Positions 6,197-19,779 of a stretch of 64,000 bases of DNA are shown here, one piece after another (the first letter of the stretch is position 1; each line of letters starts with the position of its first letter). The notes beneath the pieces were generated by a model that was not told the origin of the DNA, did no database searches, and was given only the letters and a program-made list of their open reading frames with translations. Source of the stretch: Anaerovibrio slackiae (lineage in GTDB: Bacteria; Bacillota; Negativicutes; Selenomonadales; Selenomonadaceae); contig NZ_VUNR01000009.1 of the NCBI RefSeq assembly GCF_009695585.1, positions 1 through 64,000 of the forward strand, given 5' to 3'. Made by a program: the position numbers and the translations under genes.

Positions 6197-7384
6197 ATGT
6201 CGTCGAAAAATTATACGCCATTGTTGTCAACAATTTCAGGGGTAATGGCTATCTTGGTAGCCATAATAGCAATAGCTTCTGATGCGATGCCTGCTGTCCT
6301 GGTATACGCATTGCTGATAGTTGAGGGGCTGCTTCTGATTACTTTGGCACGGACAAATGGCAAGCTGCTGGCCATGGTGGAGGAGGATTCTGCCCCGCAG
6401 GCGGTGGCGGTGTCCCATGGTCAGTCTGGTGATGGAACGGTGGCAAAGTATCAGGCTTTTATCAAGAAGATGGCAAATATCTCTCAGCAGCTGGCGGCTT
6501 CTTCGGAGGAGCTTACTGCCAATACCCAGCAGTCAGCTGACAGCGCCATCAAGATTGCCGAGCATGTGGGTTCTGTCAGCCAGGGCATGGAGGATCAGGT
6601 CAAGGATTTGAACACTTCCATGGAAGCAATCGATGGTATTTTCAACGATATTATAGCCATGACCGAGAAGGCGGATACTGCCAGGCAGTCTGCGGAGGAT
6701 ATGGCAACCACTGCTCATGAGGGGGCATACCAGATGGAGCAGGCTGTGGAGATGATGGGCAGCATCGAAAAGAGCGTGCACGAGTCTGCCAACATGGTCA
6801 ACCGGCTGGGTGAGCAGTCCGAGGCCATCGGGCAGATTGTGGAGTCTGTTTCTTCTATTGCTGACCAGACAAATCTGCTGGCACTGAATGCGGCTATTGA
6901 GGCGGCCCGTGCCGGTGAGGCAGGCAAGGGCTTTGCGGTAGTAGCGGAGGAGGTCCGCAAGCTGGCGGCAGAGTCCCAGGAGGCAGCCAAGCATATCAAG
7001 GAGAATATTACCTCCATCCAGCAGGCTACCCAGGACACTGTAAAGGCTATGGAGCAGGGCACTGCCGAGGTTGCCAGAGGTACTGAGTCCATCCGCCAGG
7101 TGGGCAGCCAGTTTGGCACTATTATTGAGAAAATCGATCATATTCAGGGGCAGATGAACGGCATTACCAGTGCGGTGGATGTGGTATCCCAGGGGGCGGA
7201 GAAGATTGTCTTTGCTGTGGATTCTATGGATGAAATCAGCCGCAAGGTTAATGAAAGCACCAAGGTTATTTCCGGGGAAACCCAGCAGCAGTCTGCTTCC
7301 AATGAGGAGATTGCGGCAGCTTCCCTTGCTTTGGCAAATCTGGCTGAGGAAATGCAGACCGAGGTTACCAATTTCCGGGTTTAA
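6197..7384 (+). CDS. methyl-accepting chemotaxis protein without a sensor domain
   Basis: A 395-residue chemoreceptor. ATG 6197 follows GGAGGAGG. Two hydrophobic helices (about residues 10-28 and 33-52) are joined by only a few residues, so there is no periplasmic ligand-binding domain. A linker leads to the long cytoplasmic signalling coiled coil. The hairpin tip that binds CheA and CheW is intact near residues 222-262 ([20 protein letters not shown], then [15 protein letters not shown]). Receptors built this way sense the membrane state or an internal signal, or take input from a partner protein. The only other chemotaxis gene in the window is the distant cheR at 44.2 kb. It has its own promoter and an attenuator-like hairpin, and lies just upstream of the Pel locus. 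Confidence 0.93.
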
Positions 7385-7417
7385 TTATTTTGTAAATTTC
7401 AGTTTGTCGTAGTGCCG

Positions 7418-7468
7418 GTTTGTTACTTCGTGCACATACTGACTAAAATGGTTTGATACTTCGTGGAC
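7418..7468 (+). repeat. 19-bp direct repeat beside palindrome A
   Basis: GGTTTGTTACTTCGTGCAC at 7418-7436 and GGTTTGATACTTCGTGGAC at 7450-7468 match at 17 of 19 positions. The second copy ends exactly where the large palindrome begins. Confidence 0.7.
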
Positions 7469-7654
7469 TCTGTTCAGACATTATAAAGGGACAGGTAGCG
7501 GCAGTACCCATAGAAAACTCGCTCTCGCTCTTAGCACAGCCTCGCGCTTCTAAGCTCCTGCATCGCTTACGCTCGCACTCGCTAAGAAGCGAGGCTGCAC
7601 TCAAGGTTTTCTTTGGGTACATGCCGCACCTGTCCTTCTTTTTGTCTGAACAGA
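7469..7654 (+). repeat. large hairpin repeat element, copy A (186 bp)
   Basis: The element opens with TCTGTTCAGACA (7469-7480) and closes with its exact complement TGTCTGAACAGA (7643-7654). The next 38 bases on each side also pair almost throughout (for example GGGACAGGT with ACCTGTCC, and GTACCCA with TGGGTAC). A G/C-rich inner stem (CAGCCTCGC with GCGAGGCTG) surrounds a terminal loop. Only the left arm carries an unpaired TCGCTCTCGCTC insert. The same design occurs at 52544-52687 and, inverted, at 56994-57175. It holds no credible gene. The intergenic span 7385-7874 contains this element, the direct repeat before it, a riboswitch-like leader and the pelD promoter. Confidence 0.85.
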
Positions 7655-7690
7655 TATGCACATAATAATCCAACTGCATTCAATTAGTAT

Positions 7691-7770
7691 GCAACTGTAG
7701 CAACTAATTCTGACTTTACGAGCAAGCCTGAAAAGGGGAAGCCTGGAGACTGACGAAACTTGCTACTGCC
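7691..7770 (+). promoter_or_regulatory. possible 3' half of a cobalamin-type riboswitch in the pelD leader
   Basis: In order: GCAACTGTAG (7691-7700), ACGAGCAAGCCTG (7718-7730), GGGGAAG (7735-7741) and AGCCTGGAGACTG (7740-7752). These resemble the CAACTGTAA, ACGAGCGAAGCC, GGGAAGG and AGCCAGGAGACCTG blocks of cobalamin riboswitches in the right order. The spacing is compressed, the blocks are imperfect and the 5' half is not seen. AGCAAG and CTTGCT can also pair. Treat it as a structured leader of uncertain identity. Confidence 0.25.
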
Positions 7771-7828
7771 GACCGCTGTATAAACTGAAATTTTTTTAAA
7801 ATTCTATTCATGTGCTGCCATAATAGTA

Positions 7829-7834
7829 TATAAT
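7829..7834 (+). promoter_or_regulatory. candidate -10 box of the pel operon
   Basis: TATAAT at 7829-7834, 40 bases before pelD. No convincing -35 box stands upstream, so activation or a weak promoter is possible. Confidence 0.35.
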
Positions 7835-7874
7835 ATAAAGCAAGTATTATTTTTATGGGGATTAGGGCTGTGTT

Positions 7875-9968
7875 ATGAGTAACAATAAAAATGCTTTTAG
7901 GAGAAGTGTTCTTTTTGCTGGCACTAGGGGCTTTATGAGGGAAATCCTGAAGGAAAAGCTGCAAAAGGAAGGCTGGGATGTAGTTGGTGCAGGAGAGGAC
8001 AGCTTCAAGCTGTACAATCCTCAGATTGTGGTGTATTTTGCCGGCAGGGACTGCGGGCAGGATATGCTGCAGGTTCTGTATGATGCCAGGCAGTACAAGG
8101 CAGGGCGGTTTTTGTATGTGACCAGTGCCGGGGCGCGGCAGGCATACTCAGAGGAGTTCGTGCTGGCATGGAGCCGGGAGCATGGCGTGCAGTCATCGGT
8201 GGTTATTTTGCCGGAGGTCTTCGGCAAGGGCATCGCCAGCGAGGACAGCGTTATTGCCCGGTTCTTTTGTGCTGCCTGTGAGCAGGAGAAGTTCCAGCTC
8301 CATGGCCGTGATGATGTGGCGGTGCCCGTGCTGTACAGCGAGGATGCCGCCCATGCTATATTGATGATTATCCAGCAGGAAATAAAGCAGGAGCGGATTG
8401 CAGTTTCCTCGGAGGAAGCCATGAGCTTCATGCAGGTGGTGCTGACTGTGAACGGGTTTGTCAATCTGCCCCAGGTGGATATTCTGGGGCAGGGCAATGA
8501 GTTTTGCTGGACCGCTGCAAAGAGCGGGGCAGATGGCGGAGCAGAGGGGGAAGATCTGGCAGGGCAGGCTGCGGCAGAAGCTTATGAGCTGAAGTTAAAG
8601 CCCAAGTACCGTGCCGCTGAAATGCTGAAGCCTGTCTATGAGTGGTATGCCACCCATGGGGGAGCCGGTGCGGCGGACGCAGGCAGCCAGGCGGGAACGG
8701 CTGCTGGCGGTGACAGGGAGCCTGAACAGGCTTCTGAAAAGGAAAATAGCAGACTGGAAAAATATAAGCCCTATCTGGAAAACATAGGGCTTTTTGTGGT
8801 GATTGTAATTCTCAGCCTGTTGCAGGGCAAAACCCCTGTCAATAGCGCCACCGGGCTGGATATTGCCTATATCTACATCATTATCATGGGCATCCTCTAC
8901 GGCAAGAAGCAGTCATTGCCTGCTGTGCTGCCCTCCATGGCTCTTTTGACCTGGGGGCTTCTCAACCAGCACGGTGAGATTTCCAGCATTTTCTATGTGC
9001 CGGAGAATATCTTCCACTATTCCACCTATCTGTTCCTGGGTGTCTTCACCGGCTATATCAGCGACAGCTGGCGCAGCCAGATTGATTCCCTGGGGTACAA
9101 GCTGAATCATTTTGCCAGAAGGTACAGCTTCTTGCAGGAGAATTATCAGAAATCCATAGAGATAAAGGACAAGCTCTATCATCAGATCATCAACTCCGAT
9201 GACAGCATCGGCTGGCTGTACGGCATTATTCGCCAGCTGGATACTGTCGAGGTGGAGGACATCTTCACCCAGGCGGCAGCGGTGACAGGCCGCATCATGG
9301 GCACCCAGAACGTGGCCATCTACGTGATGGGCAAGGACCAGTTCTACCTGCGCCAGAAGGTGCGCCTGGGGGACAGGACTGCCCAGCTGCCTCATTCCAG
9401 GCGGACGGAGGACAATCCCTACATCATGGACATGCTGGCCAACCACCATCTCTTTGTCAACCACGGCTTGCAGCTGGGGCTGCCTGATTTGGCGGCACCG
9501 ATTATCTACGATGGCAGGATGATTGCAGTCATCGAGATTTATGGCATGAATTTTGAGCAGTGGAGCATCTATCAGCAGAACTTGCTGTCGGTGACTTCCC
9601 GATTGATTTCCATGGCCATGGGCAAGGCGTACCTCTACGAGGAAGGCATCCAGAGCCGCCGCTTTGTGCCTCAGACCAGGATTTTGCAGCCGGAGGAGTT
9701 CGCCAAGCTGGAAAAGGGGCTCAGAACCCGTGCTGCCTTGCAGGAGAATGTCAGGAACGTGCTGCTGGAGCTGTCCTGTGCCGGTATGAGCTATCAGGAG
9801 CTGGACAGCAGGCTGTCAGGGGCTATCCGCCAGGAGGATGCGGTGGGGCTCAAGGAAGACAGGGTATTTTTGCTGCTGCATGATGTGGATGATACGGGCA
9901 TGCAGCTGGTACGGCAGCGGCTTTTGCATCGAGGCATAGAGGTATTGGAGAGCAGGGAGCTGGTGTAG
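7875..9968 (+). CDS. pelD: PelD-like c-di-GMP receptor with an N-terminal SDR domain
   Basis: A 697-residue inner-membrane protein, first gene of the Pel locus. Residues 1-215 look like a Rossmann-type extended SDR or NAD-epimerase domain (VLFAGTRGFMREIL, then FLYVTSAGA) lacking a clear YxxxK. A low-complexity linker leads to about four membrane helices (residues 297-400), a short coiled coil, a GAF domain (about 430-570) and a degenerate GGDEF domain (about 600-697). In P. aeruginosa, PelD binds c-di-GMP through an RxxD I-site in a dead GGDEF domain and so switches on polymer export. Here RQED at residues 652-655 sits at the I-site position, and the GGDEF signature is replaced by KEDRVF. It would therefore bind, not make, c-di-GMP. 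pelE starts one base after its stop. Confidence 0.85.
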   Translation: MSNNKNAFRRSVLFAGTRGFMREILKEKLQKEGWDVVGAGEDSFKLYNPQIVVYFAGRDCGQDMLQVLYDARQYKAGRFLYVTSAGARQAYSEEFVLAWSREHGVQSSVVILPEVFGKGIASEDSVIARFFCAACEQEKFQLHGRDDVAVPVLYSEDAAHAILMIIQQEIKQERIAVSSEEAMSFMQVVLTVNGFVNLPQVDILGQGNEFCWTAAKSGADGGAEGEDLAGQAAAEAYELKLKPKYRAAEMLKPVYEWYATHGGAGAADAGSQAGTAAGGDREPEQASEKENSRLEKYKPYLENIGLFVVIVILSLLQGKTPVNSATGLDIAYIYIIIMGILYGKKQSLPAVLPSMALLTWGLLNQHGEISSIFYVPENIFHYSTYLFLGVFTGYISDSWRSQIDSLGYKLNHFARRYSFLQENYQKSIEIKDKLYHQIINSDDSIGWLYGIIRQLDTVEVEDIFTQAAAVTGRIMGTQNVAIYVMGKDQFYLRQKVRLGDRTAQLPHSRRTEDNPYIMDMLANHHLFVNHGLQLGLPDLAAPIIYDGRMIAVIEIYGMNFEQWSIYQQNLLSVTSRLISMAMGKAYLYEEGIQSRRFVPQTRILQPEEFAKLEKGLRTRAALQENVRNVLLELSCAGMSYQELDSRLSGAIRQEDAVGLKEDRVFLLLHDVDDTGMQLVRQRLLHRGIEVLESRELV

Positions 9969-9969
9969 G

Positions 9970-10866
9970 ATGAGTGATGAGCTGTTGTTGATATGCATGG
10001 GCTGCCACCTGCTGCTGACAGGGGCAGTGTATCTGGCAGTGGCCATGAAGGCTGACAGGCGGCAGGCACTGGCCGAGGCCGGTATCGTGCTTTTGCTGCC
10101 GGGGGCAGGGGTTCTGGCTGTGGGCATCACCAGGCTTTTGTACAGCCTGCGGTTTATGCAGAACAGGATTGATCCCCACAAGCTGATGAACAGAAACAAT
10201 GTATTTACCAACCTTATCAGCTACGATGAGAATGTCATTCCCCTCCACGATACATTTTTGGTGGAGGATGTGCAGATAAAGCGCAAGGTGTTCCTGGATG
10301 CTGTCAAGCAGAATGTGCTGGACAATCCCAAGGTGCTGCGCATGGCTACCTACGATACGGACAGGGAGATAGCCTACTATGCAGTGTCCATGATTTCCGG
10401 GCATATTGAGGAGCTGGAGGGACAGCTGGCAGAGCTGGAGTCGGAGCTTCGGCAGGAGGCGGTGCCGGAAAAGGTCAGGGAGTATGCAGGCCTTCTGGCG
10501 GATTATCTGTCCCAGGATTTTGTGGATGCCCTTACCAAGAAGGAAAAGGGCAGGATTTATGTGGAGGTTCTGGCCAGGCTTTTGCAGGAGGAACCTGAGA
10601 ATGATGAGTATATGCAGGCAAAAATCAATCAGGAAATTTTTTTGGAGGATTATGGTGAGGCTGAAAGGGATTGCCATAGTTTTCAGCAGGCATTTCCTGA
10701 CCGGGAGGAGCCGTATATCCTCTACATGAAGCTGTATCACGCCATGAGGCAGCCGGAGCTGATGGAGAAGAAGCTGGCAGAGCTGAAGGGCAGCCGGGCA
10801 AGGCTGTCACCGGATGCTCTGCGGATTTTGCGTTACTGGGGAGGGGCGTTCCGTGAAGGGCTTTAA
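9970..10866 (+). CDS. pelE: PelE-like membrane/TPR protein
   Basis: A 298-residue protein. Two hydrophobic helices at about residues 3-22 and 33-55 are followed by a soluble helical region rich in Glu and Leu, with TPR-like periodicity from about residue 170 to the end. PelE is a small inner-membrane protein with cytoplasmic TPR-like repeats that helps assemble the PelD-PelE-PelF-PelG complex. Identification rests on this architecture and on its place between pelD and the PelA deacetylase gene, since PelE sequences diverge strongly. It starts at ATG 9970 immediately after pelD, and its last 14 bases overlap the next gene, so it is clearly part of one operon. Confidence 0.75.
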   Translation: MSDELLLICMGCHLLLTGAVYLAVAMKADRRQALAEAGIVLLLPGAGVLAVGITRLLYSLRFMQNRIDPHKLMNRNNVFTNLISYDENVIPLHDTFLVEDVQIKRKVFLDAVKQNVLDNPKVLRMATYDTDREIAYYAVSMISGHIEELEGQLAELESELRQEAVPEKVREYAGLLADYLSQDFVDALTKKEKGRIYVEVLARLLQEEPENDEYMQAKINQEIFLEDYGEAERDCHSFQQAFPDREEPYILYMKLYHAMRQPELMEKKLAELKGSRARLSPDALRILRYWGGAFREGL

Positions 10867-12673
10867 AAAGGAAATATGGGTGACGTTTTTTATTGTGGCG
10901 GCACTGGGCGTCTTTTTTCAGCTGAACCGCCTGGATGTCTTTCTGCACATCAATCCCTGGAGCAATAACGCCTCTATGGGGGAGGCTGCCGGCAAAGAGG
11001 ATTATGCAGGGCTGCCCAGGGAAAGGGTGCTGGTCATCTATGATGCCGGCGAGGTGCAGAGCGTGCTGCGGCGGCACATGATTGAGAAAATCCTGACGGA
11101 GCAGAAGAAGGAGGCTGTGCGGCTGCCCCTGCACAAGGCGGAGGGGCTGCCGGAGGACCTTGGCGGCATCGTGGTGGCTACCAACAGGCTGAAGGATATC
11201 CCCTGCCTGCCGGAAATAGAGCAGTATGTGGCAGAAGGGGGCACGGTGCTGGTGCTGAGCCAGCTGCAGGATGATCTTTTGACGGACAGCCTCCGGCAGA
11301 AGCTGGGTGTCCTGTCCGTGGGGCAGGAGCACAATGCCTATGGTGTCAGGGTGCCGGGCAGCATGTATATAGGCCTGCAGGGCTTCGGCTTTGATTCTGC
11401 CGTCTACAGCACCTCCATTGCGGAGGTGAGGCTTTCCCCTGAGTCGGAGGTGGAGGTGACCTCTGCTGACGGGCAGCCTGTGGTCTGGTCCCACAGGGAC
11501 GGCAAGGGCAGGTATTTTGTCTGCAACAAGCGGGAGCGTGACGACAAGAACAGCTATGGCATGTATACCGCCATGCTGGGGCAGCTCCATGAGGATTATG
11601 CCTATCCTGTGATGAATATGAAGCTGTACTTTATTGATGATTTTCCTTCGCCGGTGCCGGAGGGCAAGTTTGAGCGGATTTATCAGGAAACAGGCATGAA
11701 CACAGCGGATTTTTATCGCAAGCTGTGGTGGCCGGAGATGCTGAACAATGGAGACAAGTACAATGTAAAATATACCGGGCTGGTGATTGAGACCTACGGC
11801 AGCCAGGTGAAGGGTGAGTTTGCTCCCCTGTCTGACGGCTCGGCGCGGCTGGGGCTGATTGTCTACGGCAGGGAGCTTCTGAAGGCCGGCGGTGAGCTGG
11901 GCATCCACGGCTACAACCATCAGTCCCTGGCCCCTGCGGGCTACGGCCAGGACCATCTGGGCTACAATACCTGGGAGAGCCAGGGGGATATGGAGGAATC
12001 CCTCAGGGAGCTGAAGCGTTATATCGAGGAGGTATATCCCGGCTATGAGATTCACTCCTATGTGCCGCCCTCCAATATCCTGAGCCCGGAGGGGAAGCAG
12101 GCACTGAAGAATGTCTTCCCTCATCTCAGGGTGTATGCTTCCCTGTATAACGGCCTGGCTACCGCCAAGGAGTATTTTCAGAATTTCCGGGTGAATCCTG
12201 ATGGCACCTGCGAAATTCCCCGGGTGTCCTCAGGCTATGTGCCCCTGCCGGAGGATGTGTGGGAAAATTATAACGTGATAAACTACAACGGCGTGTTTTC
12301 ACATTTTGTGCATCCTGATGAGATGTTCTATGAGGAAAGCCAGAACCTGACCTGGGAGATGATGAAGAAGGGCATGGGGGATTTCCTCTCTGATGTGAAT
12401 ACCAGATTTGGCTGGCTGGAGCCTGCCACTGCCTCCGAGGGGGCGGACATCATGGAGAATTATTTTGCCATGGATTACCGGCTGGAGCGCAGCCCGGAGG
12501 GGCTGAAAATCCACTGCTGGAATTTCAGCCGCCCTGTGACCTTTATCCTGCGGAGCCGCAAGGGGATTGTGTCCGTGCAGGGAGGCAGGGTGCAGAAGGT
12601 GCAGGAGGATGCCTATGTGCTGACTGTGGAGCAGCCGGAATTTGCCGTGGAATGGGCAGGTGAACAGCAATGA
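10853..12673 (+). CDS. pelA: PelA deacetylase half (DUF2194 type)
   Basis: A 606-residue extracytoplasmic protein with an N-terminal signal anchor (about residues 8-25). The start is GTG 10853 with GGGGAGGGG at 10838-10846. Residues 45-240 form a Rossmann-like domain (VLVIYDAG; VATNRL; GGTVLVLSQL) like the central region of PelA. Residues 260-500 carry the polysaccharide deacetylase fold, with FIDDFPSP as the metal-binding Asp region and HGYNHQS as the HxxxH motif. A beta domain ends the protein. PelA partly removes acetyl groups from Pel, a GalNAc-rich polymer, making it cationic. P. aeruginosa PelA also has an N-terminal glycosidase; here that activity is missing from this gene and appears as a separate gene at 17862-18872. 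It overlaps pelE by 14 bases and pelF by 4. Confidence 0.85.
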   Translation: MKGFKKEIWVTFFIVAALGVFFQLNRLDVFLHINPWSNNASMGEAAGKEDYAGLPRERVLVIYDAGEVQSVLRRHMIEKILTEQKKEAVRLPLHKAEGLPEDLGGIVVATNRLKDIPCLPEIEQYVAEGGTVLVLSQLQDDLLTDSLRQKLGVLSVGQEHNAYGVRVPGSMYIGLQGFGFDSAVYSTSIAEVRLSPESEVEVTSADGQPVVWSHRDGKGRYFVCNKRERDDKNSYGMYTAMLGQLHEDYAYPVMNMKLYFIDDFPSPVPEGKFERIYQETGMNTADFYRKLWWPEMLNNGDKYNVKYTGLVIETYGSQVKGEFAPLSDGSARLGLIVYGRELLKAGGELGIHGYNHQSLAPAGYGQDHLGYNTWESQGDMEESLRELKRYIEEVYPGYEIHSYVPPSNILSPEGKQALKNVFPHLRVYASLYNGLATAKEYFQNFRVNPDGTCEIPRVSSGYVPLPEDVWENYNVINYNGVFSHFVHPDEMFYEESQNLTWEMMKKGMGDFLSDVNTRFGWLEPATASEGADIMENYFAMDYRLERSPEGLKIHCWNFSRPVTFILRSRKGIVSVQGGRVQKVQEDAYVLTVEQPEFAVEWAGEQQ

Positions 12674-14097
12674 GGATATGTTTGTTGGTGGAGGGCTCCT
12701 ATCCATATGTGGTGGGGGGCGTGTCCTCCTGGATACAGATGCTGATGGAGGGCTTTCCTGAGTATGAGTTCTTTATCTACGCCATGGGGGCGGAGGCAAA
12801 GGACAGGGGAAAGTATAAATACAAGTTCCCGGCAAATGTGACGGGGATTCAGGAGGTTTTTCTGGATGAAATCCTCAGCTGCAAGTCGCCTTCCTTGCAG
12901 GAGAATATTTTGTCTGAGGCGGAGAGAAACTGCATCTATGACCTGGTCATGGGGGAAAAGCCTATTGATATAGGTGCCATGGCGGAGATTTTCCAGCACA
13001 AGGGCAAAATCCGCAGCCCCCTGGCGATTTTTATGAGCAGCGATTTTTTTGATATTATCAGCCAGGTGTACAGGAAAAGGTACAGCTACCTGCCCTTTAC
13101 GGATTTTTTCTGGACTATGCGCTCCATGCTGCTGCCGCTGTTTTATTTTCTCCATCAGCCCCTGCCGGAGGCGGATGTGTACCACAGCGTGGCAACGGGG
13201 TACTGCGGCATTATCGGCAGCCTGGCAGCCAGCGTGCAGAAAAAGCCGTTTTTGATTACGGAGCACGGCATCTACTCCCGGGAGAGGGAGACGGAAATCG
13301 TCAAGTGCGGCTGGGCCAAGGGTGATTTCAAGTCCGTGTGGATTCAGTATTTTTATAATATTGCCAAGCTTGCCTACCGCTCGGCGGACATGGTGGTGAC
13401 GCTCTTTGAGCAGAACGCGATTATCGAGCAGGAGCTGGGCTGCGACCCGGCCAAGATAAGGATTGTGCCCAATGGCGTCCGCATGGAAAGGTTCCGGCAT
13501 ATCGGGGAGCTGCAGCAGCATGAGGGCCCGCTGGTGATTGGGGGCGTGGTCAGGGTGGTGCCTATCAAGGATATCATAACTATGCTGCGGGCGTTCCTGC
13601 TGGTGCAGCAGGTGTTCCCTGATGCGGTGCTGAAGGTTATCGGCCCCTACGGGGAGGACAAGGAATACTATGAGATGTGCCGCCAGACGGTGGAGACCTT
13701 GCAGCTGAGGAATGTGGAGTTCACGGGCTCTGTGAATGTGGCGGAGTATCTGCCCAAGCTGGATATCATGGTGCTGTCCAGCATCAGCGAGGGGCAGCCC
13801 CTGGCGGTGCTGGAGGGGCAGGCGGCAAGGCGTCCCTTCGTGACTACCAATGTGGGCTGCTGCCGGGAGCTTATCTACGGCGCTACCGGGGATGAGCTGG
13901 GCACGGCCGGTGCCGTGGTGGCGCCGATGGATTACCGCCAGATGGCCAAGGAAATCATCCGCCTGGGCAGGGATTTTGAGCTGAGGCGCAGGATGGGCAA
14001 CATCGGCTATCAGCGGGTGGAAAATGGGTATACTTATGAGAATTTTATTAACTCCTATCGGGAGATTTATGGCAAGTATGAGAGGCCGGGAGATTGA
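12670..14097 (+). CDS. pelF: PelF glycosyltransferase
   Basis: A 475-residue cytoplasmic GT4-family glycosyltransferase that polymerises Pel from UDP-sugars. The N-terminal PelF signature is clear (MRICLLVEGSYPYVVGGVSSW), the acceptor-side domain carries ITEHGIYSRERE, and the nucleotide-sugar domain has the conserved SSISEGQPLAVLEG with the GT4 ExxxxxxxE arrangement. The usual length is about 500 residues. It starts inside the end of the deacetylase gene (ATGA overlap). The last codons and the gap after them are made of 28-bp tandem repeats, so the C terminus may vary between strains. It is the most confidently identified member of the cluster and anchors the naming of its neighbours. Confidence 0.93.
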   Translation: MRICLLVEGSYPYVVGGVSSWIQMLMEGFPEYEFFIYAMGAEAKDRGKYKYKFPANVTGIQEVFLDEILSCKSPSLQENILSEAERNCIYDLVMGEKPIDIGAMAEIFQHKGKIRSPLAIFMSSDFFDIISQVYRKRYSYLPFTDFFWTMRSMLLPLFYFLHQPLPEADVYHSVATGYCGIIGSLAASVQKKPFLITEHGIYSRERETEIVKCGWAKGDFKSVWIQYFYNIAKLAYRSADMVVTLFEQNAIIEQELGCDPAKIRIVPNGVRMERFRHIGELQQHEGPLVIGGVVRVVPIKDIITMLRAFLLVQQVFPDAVLKVIGPYGEDKEYYEMCRQTVETLQLRNVEFTGSVNVAEYLPKLDIMVLSSISEGQPLAVLEGQAARRPFVTTNVGCCRELIYGATGDELGTAGAVVAPMDYRQMAKEIIRLGRDFELRRRMGNIGYQRVENGYTYENFINSYREIYGKYERPGD

Positions 14098-14148
14098 TGG
14101 CAATTATGAGAAGCCGGAAGATTGATGGGAAATATGAGAGGATGGAGG
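14071..14148 (+). repeat. 28-bp tandem repeat across the pelF stop codon
   Basis: Units at 14071-14098, 14099-14126 and a partial third to 14148. The unit begins GGCAAGTATGAGAGGCCGGG and ends AGATTGAT, and the TGA inside it is the pelF stop. Units differ at a few positions. Confidence 0.8.
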
Positions 14149-14158
14149 TGAAGGGCTG

Positions 14159-15616
14159 ATGGCAGGTATCGGATTTGAGCTGAAAAGGCTTTTTGACAGG
14201 CGTACCCTGACGGGGCAGACTATGGCATATGGCTATTCCGCCATTATTACGGCGGGGCCCTTTGCCCTGCTGACCTCCATGGTGCTTTTGATTCAGCTGC
14301 TGTTTGTGCAGTACGGGGTGGCAAAGGGGGCAGGGCAGCTGTATACTGCCTCGGTGATTTATCCCTTTGTGTTTTCCCAGCTGCTCACCTGCGGCTTTGC
14401 CATGGTGATTACCAGGTATCTGGCGGACAAGCTTTATCAGGGGGAATATGAGAATGTGACTGCCTCCTGCTACGGCATTATTTTTATTTCCCAGCTTCTG
14501 GGGGCGGTGGCGGCGGTGGCTTTTTACTGGGACAAGCCCCTGGCTTTTGAGCTGAAGCTGGCTGCCTATGTGTTCTTTATGGAGATGTCGGCAGTGTGGC
14601 TGCAGGGGGTGTACCTGACGGCCCTGAAGGACTACAAGTCTATTTTCCTCAGCTATGGGGGCGGCGGCGCCATCAGCGTGCTGCTGGCATGGGCGAATTT
14701 GCATTTTGCCTTTATGGAGCCGGTGCTGGGCTCCATGGTGGCCATGTGCATCGGCACGGGGGTGATTGTGTGCTGCTTCATGGTGCAGATTGCCAGGTAT
14801 TTCGGCTATCCGGCAGAGGGGATGAATTTTGAGTTTTTGCCGTATTTCGAGGTGCACTACAGGCTGTTCGGGGTGGCGTTTTTCTATACCCTGGCTATTT
14901 ATGCGGCGAATTTCATCATCTGGCAGGGCCCCTGGGGGGTGACTGTGGCGGATACCTATCTGTATTCCCCCAGGTATGATGTGGTGACTTTTTATGCTTT
15001 TTTGTCCATCCTGCCTACCATGATTATGTTCGTGGTATCCATGGAGCTGAAGTTTTATGAGCAGTATGCGGTGTATTTTACCTATATTACCCAGAAGGGG
15101 AATTTTCAGGATATTGAGGACGCCAGGAAGGAGCTCCTGCATACCCTGTGGACGGAGTTCAAGAACATCATGGAGTTCCAGCTGGTGTTCAGCCTGATGT
15201 TCCTGGCGGCAGGGGGGTATCTCCTGTCCATGGGGGGCGTCAGCTATCAGGATGTGAATATCTACAGGATCCTGGTGCTGGGGGCGTTTTTTAATGCGGT
15301 GCTGCAGGTGGTCTATACCCTGCTGCTGTACCTGGAGGACCAGCATGGGGCCCTGATGATTGCCGGGGCGTTCCTGCTTTCAAATATGGTGCTGGGCATT
15401 GGCGGACTGTGGCTGGGGGAGGCAAGCTACGGCTTTACCTTTTTCCTGTCGGCACTTTTGGCCTGTGCTGTGGCGGTGATGAGGCTGCAGCATTTCTGCC
15501 AGCGGATCAGCTATTATGTATTTTGCGGCAGGCCGGTGTTTTTTGAGGCGCCCCACGGGGTGTTCTCCCGGCTGGCGGCGTTTTTGTACAGGGACAGGCA
15601 GGAGAGAAATGCCTGA
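14159..15616 (+). CDS. pelG: PelG polysaccharide transporter
   Basis: A 485-residue protein with about 12 membrane helices, of the MOP/PST flippase superfamily. It begins MAGIGFELKRLF, a typical PelG start, followed by the first helices (YGYSAIITAGPFALLTSMV). In the known Pel system PelG moves the polymer across the inner membrane together with PelD, PelE and PelF. The length matches the family (about 456 in P. aeruginosa). ATG 14159 follows GGAGG within the repeat-derived gap after pelF. The following 82-base gap (15617-15698) is again composed of short GGAAT/GGATGG-rich duplications and supplies the AAAGGAGG site of the next gene. Confidence 0.9.
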   Translation: MAGIGFELKRLFDRRTLTGQTMAYGYSAIITAGPFALLTSMVLLIQLLFVQYGVAKGAGQLYTASVIYPFVFSQLLTCGFAMVITRYLADKLYQGEYENVTASCYGIIFISQLLGAVAAVAFYWDKPLAFELKLAAYVFFMEMSAVWLQGVYLTALKDYKSIFLSYGGGGAISVLLAWANLHFAFMEPVLGSMVAMCIGTGVIVCCFMVQIARYFGYPAEGMNFEFLPYFEVHYRLFGVAFFYTLAIYAANFIIWQGPWGVTVADTYLYSPRYDVVTFYAFLSILPTMIMFVVSMELKFYEQYAVYFTYITQKGNFQDIEDARKELLHTLWTEFKNIMEFQLVFSLMFLAAGGYLLSMGGVSYQDVNIYRILVLGAFFNAVLQVVYTLLLYLEDQHGALMIAGAFLLSNMVLGIGGLWLGEASYGFTFFLSALLACAVAVMRLQHFCQRISYYVFCGRPVFFEAPHGVFSRLAAFLYRDRQERNA

Positions 15617-15698
15617 TGGCAGGGAATTGGGATGGAATGGATTTTGATGGAGTGTATTTTGCTGAAAAAGATTTTGCCGGAAAGGAGGGACAGGGCTG

Positions 15699-17762
15699 AT
15701 GAGAATGTCACGGGTTAAGAGGCGGCGGCTGAATCTGCAGCGGCGGCGCGAGAGGATGCACTGCCGGAAGAAGGCGGCTGCGGCTCTTTTGACGGGGCTG
15801 GCTGCCGGTGCGCCCCTCCGGGCGGATGCGGTTACCCTCAATGTGCTGCAGGATATTTATGGCGATTTTGATTATATGGAGAATAATCTTGCCAATATCC
15901 GTGCCTTTGATTTGGCGAAGGAGTATGTGGGGGAGGCGGCGAAGAACGCGGCACTGTCCCAGAGCTATCTGGAGGAGGCGGAGGGCATCTGCCGGGAGGC
16001 TGCCGGGAACCTGCGCATGGCGGAGGAAAACAGGCAGCAGGCGGAGGAGCAGGTGCGCCTGACGGCAGAGGAGCTGCAGAAAACCCGGGCTGAGCGGATA
16101 AGGCTCACGGAGCAGGCGGTGGCCAGCCAGCAGGCGGTGGCAGACTACCTGCCGGTGTGGTATGAGGCCCGGGCGGAGCTGCAGCAGAGGCTGGATGTGC
16201 AGCAGGCGGCAGCCCTGGAGCGGCCTGCGGAGGCGGCTGCCGCGGAAGATGGCGGCTTGTCCCTCCGGGAGAGGCAGCGGGCTGAGTGGATTGAGGCGGC
16301 CTGGGAGGAAGCCGGTTTTGAGAACAGCCGCCTGCCGGAGCTGGAGATGCGCTTTGCTGCTTCGGCAGCGGCTGGCAGCACCGGCGATGGGGCTGATGGG
16401 CTCAGCGAGGCACAGGCTGCCATTGATGCCTACTGGGCGCGGATGGAGCAGCTGGAGGCGGAGGCTGATGCGGCCAGGGAGTATTTTGACAGCGTCAGCG
16501 AGCGGCTGGATGAGCTGAAGGAGCAGTGCCGGGAGGCGGAGGAAGCGGAGGCTGACTGCCGCAGGTATGTGCTGGAGCTGGAGAGGGAGCTGGCGAGAAA
16601 TAAGCAGGATGTGCTGGACTGCCAGCAGGATGTGGCTATCTGCCAGAATGAGCAGGCAGAGGCCAACAAGGCGTGCTTCCAGGCTCTCTTGGAGCGCAAT
16701 GACAGCTTTGAGGCAGTGATAGAGGCAAAGGCTTCCCTGCTGCACTTGGGGGATGGCTCCGGCGCCCAGAACAGGCTGGGGTACTACAGCTGGCAGGGGG
16801 CGGCAGCGGGCCATCAGCTGTATGATGCCTATTCCTGCTACTGGGCAGGCTATGGCAGGGAGCTGTCCATCAGCAATGCCTATGTGTATTCCCATACAGG
16901 GCTGGCTGATGGCGAGATGAGCGGCCTGACAGATACTACGGTCAGTGCCATGTATGCCAACAAGCATCCTGTGTATGATGTGCGCTACGGCCTGGATGTC
17001 AACCTGCCTACAGGGGAGAGCAGGATGCACGATAATGCAGTGGTGCCGGATTATCTGGCTCCCTATGGCAGCCTCGGGGAGGGGTGGAATTTTACGCCCA
17101 GGCTGGAGGTAGCAAGGCATGTGGATAAATACACGGCATGGACCTGGCGCAGTGCCTATGCCTTCAGGGGCAGCTATGCAAATTCCTGGGATGATCCTGC
17201 CTCGGTGGTGCATCCCGGCAGTATCTGGTCCAACGAGCTGGAATACCTGCATACGGATGAAGCCCGGCAGTACATGGTGAAGCTGCAATATACGAAAAAT
17301 AGCCGTTCCTCTATGACCGGGGCGGTGAACAATTACAGCTTTACCGAGGGGGACGGCATGGCAGGCAGGGGGTATTTCCGCAGCTGGTTTACGAAGCTGG
17401 ATTCCTGGGCTGTGTACAGTGCCTGGTCATATGACCGGGCGGCTGCCTACGATGATGCCGCCATGGGGGGCGCCGGTGTGCACCGCCTCTACTACGGGGG
17501 CGGCTGGTTCCACAGGTTTGATGACAGGCGGCAGCTGCGGCTTTTTGCCAACTGGCTGAGGGCGGAAGGGGCGGCCTATGATCCCCTGACGCGGCAGTCA
17601 TACAGCTCCGGCAGGCGGTTCTCTGTGTCCCTGGGCTATGACTGGCGCCTGGATGACAGGAACAGCCTGTCCCTTGATGTGGAAAGGGCTGTGATGCGCC
17701 AGCAGGGTGATGCCAATTATCGGGGCTGGGGCGTGATGATGAGCTATAACAGGAGTTTTTGA
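15699..17762 (+). CDS. coiled-coil outer-membrane beta-barrel protein of the pel cluster (PelB substitute?)
   Basis: A 687-residue exported protein. A very basic N-region (RVKRRRLNLQRRRERMHCRKK) precedes a hydrophobic stretch and an ADA cleavage site; ATG 15756 is an alternative start. Residues 50-345 are almost all helical, Ala/Glu/Gln/Arg-rich heptads with no TPR pattern, that is, a long periplasmic coiled coil. Residues 350-687 alternate aromatic and polar residues in amphipathic strands with Gly-rich turns and end in SYNRSF; a terminal Phe is the usual barrel-assembly signal. I do not recognise a named family. In P. aeruginosa the barrel PelB, with a TPR periplasmic domain, and the lipoprotein PelC export the polymer. 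Neither is visible here, and this gene sits between pelG and the PelA hydrolase, so I infer it is the export porin. Confidence 0.75.
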   Translation: MRMSRVKRRRLNLQRRRERMHCRKKAAAALLTGLAAGAPLRADAVTLNVLQDIYGDFDYMENNLANIRAFDLAKEYVGEAAKNAALSQSYLEEAEGICREAAGNLRMAEENRQQAEEQVRLTAEELQKTRAERIRLTEQAVASQQAVADYLPVWYEARAELQQRLDVQQAAALERPAEAAAAEDGGLSLRERQRAEWIEAAWEEAGFENSRLPELEMRFAASAAAGSTGDGADGLSEAQAAIDAYWARMEQLEAEADAAREYFDSVSERLDELKEQCREAEEAEADCRRYVLELERELARNKQDVLDCQQDVAICQNEQAEANKACFQALLERNDSFEAVIEAKASLLHLGDGSGAQNRLGYYSWQGAAAGHQLYDAYSCYWAGYGRELSISNAYVYSHTGLADGEMSGLTDTTVSAMYANKHPVYDVRYGLDVNLPTGESRMHDNAVVPDYLAPYGSLGEGWNFTPRLEVARHVDKYTAWTWRSAYAFRGSYANSWDDPASVVHPGSIWSNELEYLHTDEARQYMVKLQYTKNSRSSMTGAVNNYSFTEGDGMAGRGYFRSWFTKLDSWAVYSAWSYDRAAAYDDAAMGGAGVHRLYYGGGWFHRFDDRRQLRLFANWLRAEGAAYDPLTRQSYSSGRRFSVSLGYDWRLDDRNSLSLDVERAVMRQQGDANYRGWGVMMSYNRSF

Positions 17763-17765
17763 TTA

Positions 17766-17857
17766 AGTGGGAAATTGACAGGAATTTGACAGGAATTTGT
17801 GGCTGGAAGGGATTTTGTGGCTGGAAGGGAATCTAACAGGAGTTTTGGGATGGAAGG
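17766..17857 (+). repeat. short tandem duplications before the PelA hydrolase gene
   Basis: TTGACAGGAATTTGACAGGAAT (two copies of an 11-base unit, TTGACAGGAAT) is followed by two copies of TTGTGGCTGGAAGGGATTT-like units, and then by AACAGGAG and GGATGGAAGG. Several units carry ribosome-site-like GGAAGG; the last serves the downstream start. Confidence 0.7.
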
Positions 17858-17861
17858 TAGA

Positions 17862-18872
17862 ATGAAGATTGTTTTGCTGTGTGCCTGTGCGGCCATCCTG
17901 CTGGCGTGTATCAGCGTCTATGCCGCTGGCGGCAGGAAGGCGGCAGCCGGGGCGGATGAGTCTGTTGCCTATCGCCGGGAGATGGCGGGGCTGATTGGGA
18001 AAATCAAGGAGTATGGGGTGTCCGGGCGGGGCAGTGAGTTTTTTGTCATCGCCAACGGGGGCGCCGGGCTGATGGAGCCTAACGAGCTTTTGCCGGAGGC
18101 GGATTATGGCAGTCTGCTGCAGGGGCTGGATGGCGTGATGGCTGAGTCGGTGAATTTTGGCTGGGACATGGAAATGGACAAGGCTATGCCCCCGGAGGAA
18201 CAGGACAATTATCATAGGCTGCTGGACAATGCCCGCAGGGCAGGGGTGGTGCCCCTGGTGCTGGATTATGCCCGGGAGCCGGGGAACGTGCAGCGTGCCT
18301 ACCGGGAGGACAGGAGCCTGGGCTATCTGGGCTGGGTGTCCGGGCGCCGGGAGCTGGACAGGCTGCCTGAGGGGCTTCCCCACAGTGATAATGACCTGCC
18401 CTGCCCTGAGCTGAAAAAGGCGCGGAACTATCTGGTACTGCTGAATCCTGAGGCTTTTGCCTCCCGGGAGGCCTATGTGCAGGCCCTGGCTGCCAGCAAC
18501 TACGATTTGCTCATCGTGGATGCATACTACGGTGATAGCCCTTTGACAAGGCAGGAGGTGGCTCTCTTGCAGCACAAGCCATCAGGGGCAAGGCGGCTGG
18601 TGGCTGCCTACATGAGCGTGGGGGAGGCGGAGGAATACCGCCCTTACTGGCAGGAGGATTGGAAGGAAAATCCGCCTGCCTGGCTGTGGGAGCGCAATGA
18701 GGACTGGGAGGGAAACTTCCGGGTGCGCTACTGGCAGAAGGATTGGCAGGACATGCTGATGGGAGGTCCTGACAGCTATCTGGACATTATTCTGGCTGGT
18801 GGTTTTGACGGGGTGTTTCTGGATGTGGTGGATGTGTTTTATAGCTTTGAAAGCTTGTCAAATGGCGAATAA
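17862..18872 (+). CDS. PelA hydrolase half: endo-alpha-1,4-polygalactosaminidase-like lipoprotein
   Basis: A 336-residue exported glycosidase of the TM1410/GH114-GH166 fold. The start ATG 17862 follows GGAAGG at 17852-17857. The N terminus is a signal peptide with a lipobox LLAC at residues 13-16, so it may be lipid-anchored. The barrel-type features include VVPLVLDYAREPG, LLIVDAYYGD, AAYMSVGEAEEYRPYW and the C-terminal GVFLDVVDVFYSFE, with the acidic residues expected of the active site. In P. aeruginosa this domain is the N-terminal part of PelA, cuts alpha-1,4 GalN/GalNAc chains and controls polymer length and release. Here it is detached from the deacetylase and placed last in the cluster. 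It ends about 40 residues shorter than I would expect, without obvious damage. Confidence 0.82.
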   Translation: MKIVLLCACAAILLACISVYAAGGRKAAAGADESVAYRREMAGLIGKIKEYGVSGRGSEFFVIANGGAGLMEPNELLPEADYGSLLQGLDGVMAESVNFGWDMEMDKAMPPEEQDNYHRLLDNARRAGVVPLVLDYAREPGNVQRAYREDRSLGYLGWVSGRRELDRLPEGLPHSDNDLPCPELKKARNYLVLLNPEAFASREAYVQALAASNYDLLIVDAYYGDSPLTRQEVALLQHKPSGARRLVAAYMSVGEAEEYRPYWQEDWKENPPAWLWERNEDWEGNFRVRYWQKDWQDMLMGGPDSYLDIILAGGFDGVFLDVVDVFYSFESLSNGE

Positions 18873-18946: not shown

Positions 18947-18998
18947 GCAGGTGATTGTTCGGGGATTATTTTGGGGTTGTTTTGCGGAGGTGTTTGAT

Positions 18999-19346
18999 AT
19001 GTCAGCGTTGACTGATAAGCTGGCTGCTTATGGCTGCAATATAGATGAGGCAATGGGAAGGTTTTTGAACAATGAGGCTTTTTATGCCAAGTGCTATGGA
19101 AAGTTCGTGGCTGACAAGAGCTTTGCCAGGCTGGGGGAGGCATTGCAGGCAGGTGATGTGAAGGGTGCCTTTGAGGCTGCCCATGACCTGAAGGGCATCA
19201 GTGCCAATATGGGCATTACCCCTGTCTATGAGCTGATTGTGGGCATGGTGGAGGTGCTGCGTGCCGGGAGGATGCCTGAGGATGCCATGGAGACATATCA
19301 GAGGCTGATGGAGATGCACGCTGACCTGGAATCTTTTGCAGGGTAA
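18999..19346 (+). CDS. stand-alone HPt phosphotransfer protein
   Basis: A 115-residue all-helical protein with the histidine phosphotransfer signature: AAHDLKGISANMG, where the His in HDLKG is the phospho-acceptor and the Gly/Ala-rich helix follows. Start ATG 18999 with GGAGG at 18986-18990; the longer in-frame reading from 18900 is rejected because it has no ribosome site. HPt proteins relay phosphate between hybrid histidine kinases and response regulators. No kinase or regulator lies nearby, so it is an orphan here. Its position right after the Pel cluster and before a tRNA cluster suggests, but does not prove, a link to Pel control. Confidence 0.85.
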   Translation: MSALTDKLAAYGCNIDEAMGRFLNNEAFYAKCYGKFVADKSFARLGEALQAGDVKGAFEAAHDLKGISANMGITPVYELIVGMVEVLRAGRMPEDAMETYQRLMEMHADLESFAG

Positions 19347-19504: not shown

Positions 19505-19581
19505 CGGGGCGTAGCTCAGTTTGGTAGAGCACCTGGCTTGGGACCAGGGGGTCGTAGGTTCGAATCCTGTCGCTCCGACCA
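19505..19581 (+). tRNA. tRNA-Pro (UGG)
   Basis: A 77-base cloverleaf with encoded CCA. Acceptor CGGGGCG pairs with CGCTCCG, the anticodon loop is CTTGGGA with anticodon TGG, and the T-loop is GTTCGAATC. It is identical to the copy at 19703-19779. Confidence 0.97.
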
Positions 19582-19588
19582 TTTTTAC

Positions 19589-19665
<77 letters not shown>

Positions 19666-19702
19666 GTTTGTGATTTTGATAAATTTTATATAGATTCAGT
19701 AT

Positions 19703-19779
19703 CGGGGCGTAGCTCAGTTTGGTAGAGCACCTGGCTTGGGACCAGGGGGTCGTAGGTTCGAATCCTGTCGCTCCGACCA
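19703..19779 (+). tRNA. tRNA-Pro (UGG), second copy
   Basis: Base-for-base identical to the tRNA-Pro at 19505-19581. It has no promoter of its own and is probably processed from the same transcript. Confidence 0.97.

Follow-up and report, generated by a model that had tools for sequence, protein, structure and literature searches.

How does a diderm Firmicute release Pel exopolysaccharide through its outer membrane when its pel operon is of the Gram-positive type? Published surveys have taken Firmicute pel operons to be Gram-positive, and have counted the missing outer-membrane gene as a loss (PMC7112168, PMC7112194). The window analysed here, 64,000 nucleotides long, raises this question. 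It belongs to a 3.0-Mb genome whose nearest named relatives are Anaerovibrio (A. lipolyticus, L104, and an Anaerovibrio MAG, L105), and which we regard as diderm because it encodes OmpM-like SLH-barrel proteins. At positions 7875–18872, a Gram-positive-type Pel operon is followed by a gene for a 687-residue protein and then by one for a GH114 hydrolase. We propose, with a probability of roughly 0.8, that the 687-residue protein serves the Pel system as its outer-membrane exporter, and that it belongs to an undescribed family serving synthase-dependent polysaccharide operons across the Negativicutes.

Gene content of the Pel locus

ORFs together with Pfam and NCBIfam matches gave the order pelD (SDR + GAF), pelE, DUF2194 deacetylase, pelF, pelG, the 687-residue gene and GH114:

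7875..9968, + strand: PelD-like protein of Gram-positive type, 697 aa, with N-terminal SDR/epimerase domain, membrane segments and GAF domain (Pfam Epimerase 1e-7, GAF 7e-6; homologues take this position in most of the pel loci inspected)
9970..10866, + strand: PelE-like membrane/helical protein, 298 aa (assigned from homologues and gene position in Negativicutes pel loci; without a Pfam family)
10814..12673, + strand: PelA-type deacetylase (DUF2194), 619 aa (PF09960, E 2e-123)
12670..14097, + strand: PelF glycosyltransferase, 475 aa (NF038011, E 2.4e-114)
14159..15616, + strand: PelG inner-membrane transporter, 485 aa (PF16933, E 1.2e-129)
15699..17762, + strand: proposed outer-membrane exporter, 687 aa, predicted coiled coil plus 16-stranded barrel (ATG shortly 3' of AGGAGG; model; orthologues)
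17799..18872, + strand: GH114/PelA-hydrolase-like protein, 357 aa (PF03537 2e-12, TIGR01370 3e-37)

The initial annotation had placed pelD, pelE, a PelA deacetylase, pelF and pelG in tight succession. Every ORF was present, the family matches PF09960, NF038011 and PF16933 confirmed the deacetylase, pelF and pelG, and neighbouring genes of the operon overlap or lie no more than about 80 bases apart. As in Bacillus cereus pelDEADAFG (PMC7112168), the order is pelD-pelE-pelADA-pelF-pelG, PelD carries an SDR fusion of the kind described for Gram-positive pel operons, and the PelA hydrolase is separate. Unlike in that monoderm operon, which has no such gene, a gene for a predicted outer-membrane barrel comes next. 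The 697-residue PelD-like protein gave no match to PF16963, the GGDEF family for c-di-GMP binding in PelD, at E values up to 1, while Cupriavidus PelD matches at 9e-47.

The GH114 gene had gone unnamed, although the coordinates given for the locus take it in. Both PelA functions are thus encoded, in separate genes (deacetylase DUF2194, 2e-123; hydrolase GH114, 2e-12), and in most relatives the GH114 gene either adjoins the barrel gene or precedes pelD. Its TIGR01370 match covers only model positions 51–175 of 315, at the C-terminal end of the protein; since the GH114 proteins of relatives are similar in length, this perhaps reflects an unusual family layout rather than local truncation. Downstream of the operon lie a small Hpt-domain protein (18972–19346), whose position is kept in Anaerovibrio-like relatives, and three tRNA genes (19505–19776), the first and third of which are near-identical copies.

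Predicted structure and conservation of the 687-residue protein

Full-length orthologues of the protein (87, 61 and 61% identity within the genus, falling to some 25% in the class at large) rule out a chance ORF, and their presence in many genomes led us to set aside an assembly artefact. Pfam and NCBIfam scans returned no family that describes the protein, the matches being coiled-coil noise. Its parts are as follows:

15699..15830, + strand: Arg-rich n-region (MRMSRVKRRR) and signal-peptide-like segment, residues 1–44, with AxA at 42–44 (sequence)
15846..16742, + strand: two long helices, residues 50–173 and 237–348, with a low-confidence tip at 174–236 (AlphaFold2, helices pLDDT about 80–96)
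16755..17756, + strand: predicted 16-stranded beta-barrel, residues 353–686 (barrel-only model pLDDT 87, pTM 0.81)
17007..17087, + strand: third extracellular loop, joining strand 5 to strand 6, residues 437–463, PTG...GxGW, candidate gate (P437, G439 and G462 in 25/25 members)

An AlphaFold2 model built on 11 natural sequences (overall pLDDT 78) has 16 strands between residues 353 and 686, and the barrel-only model gave 16 again. A coiled coil of 300 residues and a barrel of about 340 residues ending in Phe, with 14–18 strands expected on modelling, had been read from the sequence. The prediction bears this out, with long helices over residues 50–348, a confident 16-stranded barrel over 353–686 and a final Phe. 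No TPR family was matched in Pfam; two very long helices are predicted instead. One caveat here is that only 11 sequences underlie the modelled pairing of these helices, and that the tip is poorly predicted.

Conservation was assessed in an alignment of 25 members of the barrel family. The most conserved stretch is the loop that joins strands 5 and 6; the topology of the model would place it outside the cell, where it may act as a gate. Y363, W365, Q373, D412, N435, Q524, Y573 and Y674 are also conserved, and by alternation their side chains probably face the lumen. The same reasoning assigns 13 Asp/Glu and 14 Lys/Arg to the lumen side, which is not clearly anionic, unlike that of PelB. Among members the coil varies in length between about 210 and 330 residues, while the barrel is nearly constant at about 335–400. 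In Selenomonadaceae, an Arg-rich motif, RM(S/T)Rx, precedes the signal-like segment in one to four copies (15699–15730 here). It was seen at the N-termini of barrel proteins in L093, L094, L068, L067, L096 and L098, and no other ORF of these six loci holds at least two copies.

Relation to known exporters

Single PelB and PelC queries, run without a control, found no match, and the searches were hence repeated with PF24604 (the PelB C-terminal barrel family) and a four-sequence PelC profile alongside a control record. PF24604 matched neither the 687-residue protein nor anything else in this genome (control record, E 4e-65), and it passed the cut-off in none of 300 Negativicutes genomes. The PelC profile, which remote forms could escape, found none in this genome (control record, E 4e-56). 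In these profile searches, the earlier remark that PelB and PelC are not recognisable at the locus also held for the whole genome. The BcsC domain (BCSC_C, PF05420), which matches the E. coli positive control, was likewise absent from all 300 genomes.

BcsC, PgaA and AlgE also provide barrels for synthase-dependent polymers, the role inferred here, and the predicted fold is similar. They use TPR scaffolds, as in the AlgK/E exporter, whereas the 687-residue protein has a coiled coil. PelB, BcsC and PgaA barrels have 16 strands (PMC12141448). With P. aeruginosa PelB/PelC (PMC12141448) the protein shares its Pel operon context, a single-chain 16-stranded barrel (here predicted) and a large N-terminal, presumably periplasmic, helical domain. 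It differs in that no TPR repeats, PF24604 match or PelC partner were found, a coiled coil taking their place, and in that the sequence profiles are unrelated.

In a Foldseek search with the whole model, BcsC ranked first, and PelBC, AlgE and PgaA were also among the top 40. For the barrel-only model, VIA-align placed PelB second (Z 19.5, rmsd 4.0 over 253 residues); BamA, CdiB, TpsB proteins and porins score like PelB, with Z differences of about 1–3. Because porins, BamA, CdiB and PelB score equally, the fold comparison indicates a predicted 16-stranded outer-membrane barrel and not its cargo.

These matches bear on ancestry. Descent from PelB, BcsC or PgaA, with the TPR superhelix swapped for a coiled coil and the barrel diverged past sequence recognition, would make the protein an exporter that is no independent invention. 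The identical strand number and the high fold-match ranks of BcsC and PelB are consistent with such descent, but hhalign against a PelB barrel alignment gave a probability of 7%, a profile search of PDB chains with the barrel alone returned no match, and unrelated 16-stranded barrels score equally. We consider this origin unlikely. Other kinships were also considered: a degraded PelB was set aside; PDB profile matches of the whole protein to SMC and tropomyosin were coiled-coil noise; and OmpM ancestry was rejected, with no SLH match and an hhalign probability under 1%.

Co-occurrence and coupling with pelG

In a survey of 300 Negativicutes genomes, PelG being counted over the Pfam cut-off, the barrel protein was present in all 47 pelG-positive genomes compared to 9 of the 253 pelG-negative ones; 244 have neither (Fisher P about 3e-46, uncorrected for kinship). 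The gene is thus far from absent in Negativicutes pel loci. Weak matches in about 60 genomes (under about 42 bits, nearly all in the coil) are other coiled-coil proteins and were left uncounted; G165 was dropped as a homologue on the same grounds.

The barrel gene lies directly downstream of pelG, on the same strand, in 42 of the 47 genomes. It is also adjacent to pelG in G227 and G256, where the matches are fragmented, and of the remaining three, G261 and G218 have it on another contig and G194 has it rearranged. The two genes overlap by 4 bases in L064, L084, L086, L093 and L096. In L087 (G149, 10713–14544), a 476-codon ORF splits the barrel gene, the two halves of which together match the whole protein; this resembles an insertion within the gene.

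In G010 (L083, 10170–13574), a single frame of 1,135 codons runs without interruption through pelG and the barrel gene, which could be truly fused or a coupled pair. If real, this frame would encode a single chain that combines an inner-membrane transporter with an outer-membrane barrel. Such a frame would suit a trans-envelope bridge, with an uncleaved N-terminus in the inner membrane and the barrel in the outer, as proposed for the elongated MlaD of Veillonella parvula (PMC10665443). That precedent is from the same class and also joins a periplasm-spanning part to an outer-membrane barrel, and the Arg-rich motif in one to four copies at Selenomonadaceae N-termini points the same way. However, the short hydrophobic segment and AxA site suit a cleaved signal peptide, and the modelled helix pair would put residue 50 beside the barrel. 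V. parvula MlaD, moreover, has an MCE domain and an inner-membrane anchor and transports lipids, whereas the 687-residue protein has no MCE match and no similarity to this genome's own MlaD, which is encoded elsewhere; MlaD ancestry was rejected on these grounds. A bridge thus appears quite improbable to us. A cleaved N-terminus would make it a simple outer-membrane protein, an uncleaved one a bridge of the V. parvula MlaD kind (PMC10665443).

The same family in other synthase operons

The barrel family also adjoins three other synthase-type operons, namely Bacillus yda-like, PgaC-like and cellulose-synthase-like. Protein families were assigned by scans of one or two loci per type and extended to the other loci by BLAST clustering. 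In G049 and G064, GGDEF, DUF2334, GT2 and BcsB-like genes, which we take to match ydaJKLMN domain by domain, are followed by the barrel gene. The layout is that of Bacillus ydaJKLMN (PMC13274460), plus the barrel. In G053, G153 and G213, the barrel gene accompanies PgaC-like GT2 and polysaccharide-deacetylase genes, and in G153 and G010 it adjoins a BcsA-like GT2 with PilZ, an MBOAT acyltransferase, an AlgX-like protein and a GH5 cellulase. Two full-length homologues, in L068 (G251, 8079–10394) and L070 (G001, 7334–9295), have no synthase recognised in the stretch inspected.

In a tree of the barrel domain, the yda-type members and the bcs-type members each formed a supported pair, inside a set that also holds pel types. 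This nesting argues for partner switching within one family, and the occurrence of the family in four synthase contexts makes it look like the general route through the outer membrane for synthase-made polymers of Negativicutes. Co-occurrence, predicted fold and the absence of PelB and PelC thus support the distinct outer-membrane solution for Pel put forward in the initial annotation; its specificity for Pel does not stand, since the family is also found in yda-, PgaC- and BcsA-like operons.

Might the protein instead be a surface anchor or retention protein, which binds or tethers the finished polymer while export proceeds through another, unrecognised channel? Operon linkage alone suits any outer-membrane accessory, and the coiled coil resembles tethers such as Negativicutes OmpM, itself an outer-membrane barrel with a periplasmic helical part, in general layout. 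OmpM, however, has an SLH domain, which the 687-residue protein lacks, as well as a short helical part and no profile similarity to it. The operon holds no other outer-membrane candidate, the PelB and BcsC families are absent class-wide, and the barrel stays associated with four different types of synthase. These data make an anchor distinctly improbable. It is highly improbable that the operon simply carries along an ordinary porin or a stabiliser of the outer membrane: structural scores to general porins do equal those to PelB, BcsC and AlgE, but the 47/47 co-occurrence, the conserved adjacency with translational overlap and the four synthase contexts argue against it.

Pel loci outside the class show further arrangements. 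In a fusobacterial locus (Cetobacterium, L101, 10409–13424), PelG has a 240-residue tail bearing a lipobox-like LLFLSGC and tyrosine/glycine-rich repeats, and is followed by an unrelated putative outer-membrane protein of 305 residues (P0002), which we compared with the 687-residue protein and found not homologous; this is possibly another export solution. On a Sulfitobacter plasmid (L124, 10825–16900), pelF and pelG adjoin a Wza-type polysaccharide export (OPX) gene with no PelB annotated, which suggests a further outer-membrane route for PelFG polymers.

Proposed route of the polymer and implications

As an exporter, the 687-residue protein would complete the following route. Polymer would be made in the cytosol by PelF, pass the inner membrane via PelG with PelD and PelE, and be partially deacetylated in the periplasm by the DUF2194 enzyme. 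We infer that the protein sits in the outer membrane, its paired helices docking towards PelG/PelE at the inner membrane. At 1.5 Å per residue, helices of 112–124 residues would span about 17–18 nm from the barrel, and may stand in for PelB's TPR superhelix as scaffold. The polymer would then exit through the single-chain 16-stranded barrel, where the conserved third loop may gate passage, and GH114 may trim or release it. As indirect evidence, PelF/PelG are noted in strains of biofilm-forming S. sputigena, of which ATCC 35185 builds robust biofilm; the non-biofilm strain ATCC 33150 lacks both proteins (PMC13339959, 2026).

The open-access papers found on Gram-positive pel operons and Gram-negative PelBC describe no outer-membrane partner for Negativicutes; subscription papers and preprints lie outside this search, and the novelty of the exporter family is provisional. 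The finding is broader than the locus that led to it, being a family of probable polymer exporters spread across the class, whose scaffold and barrel cannot be traced in sequence to known ones. Diderm Firmicutes appear to push Pel and several other polymers through the outer membrane by a coiled-coil-plus-barrel protein. More tentatively, and at somewhat less than even odds, this family, unrelated in sequence to PelB, BcsC and PgaA, could provide every synthase-dependent polysaccharide of diderm Firmicutes (Pel, cellulose-like, PgaC-type and yda-type) with a common way out through the outer membrane; it could bridge towards, and even be fused to, the inner-membrane transporter, and its loss or gain would mark the monoderm/diderm transition of these operons.

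Polymer exit in diderm Firmicutes had been a blank, and a conserved candidate exporter family would now fill this gap with a non-TPR scaffold serving several unrelated synthases. One practical setting is that of Selenomonas biofilms in the mouth. The barrel family may also serve as a marker of whether an outer-membrane part was lost from monoderm operons or gained by diderm ones.
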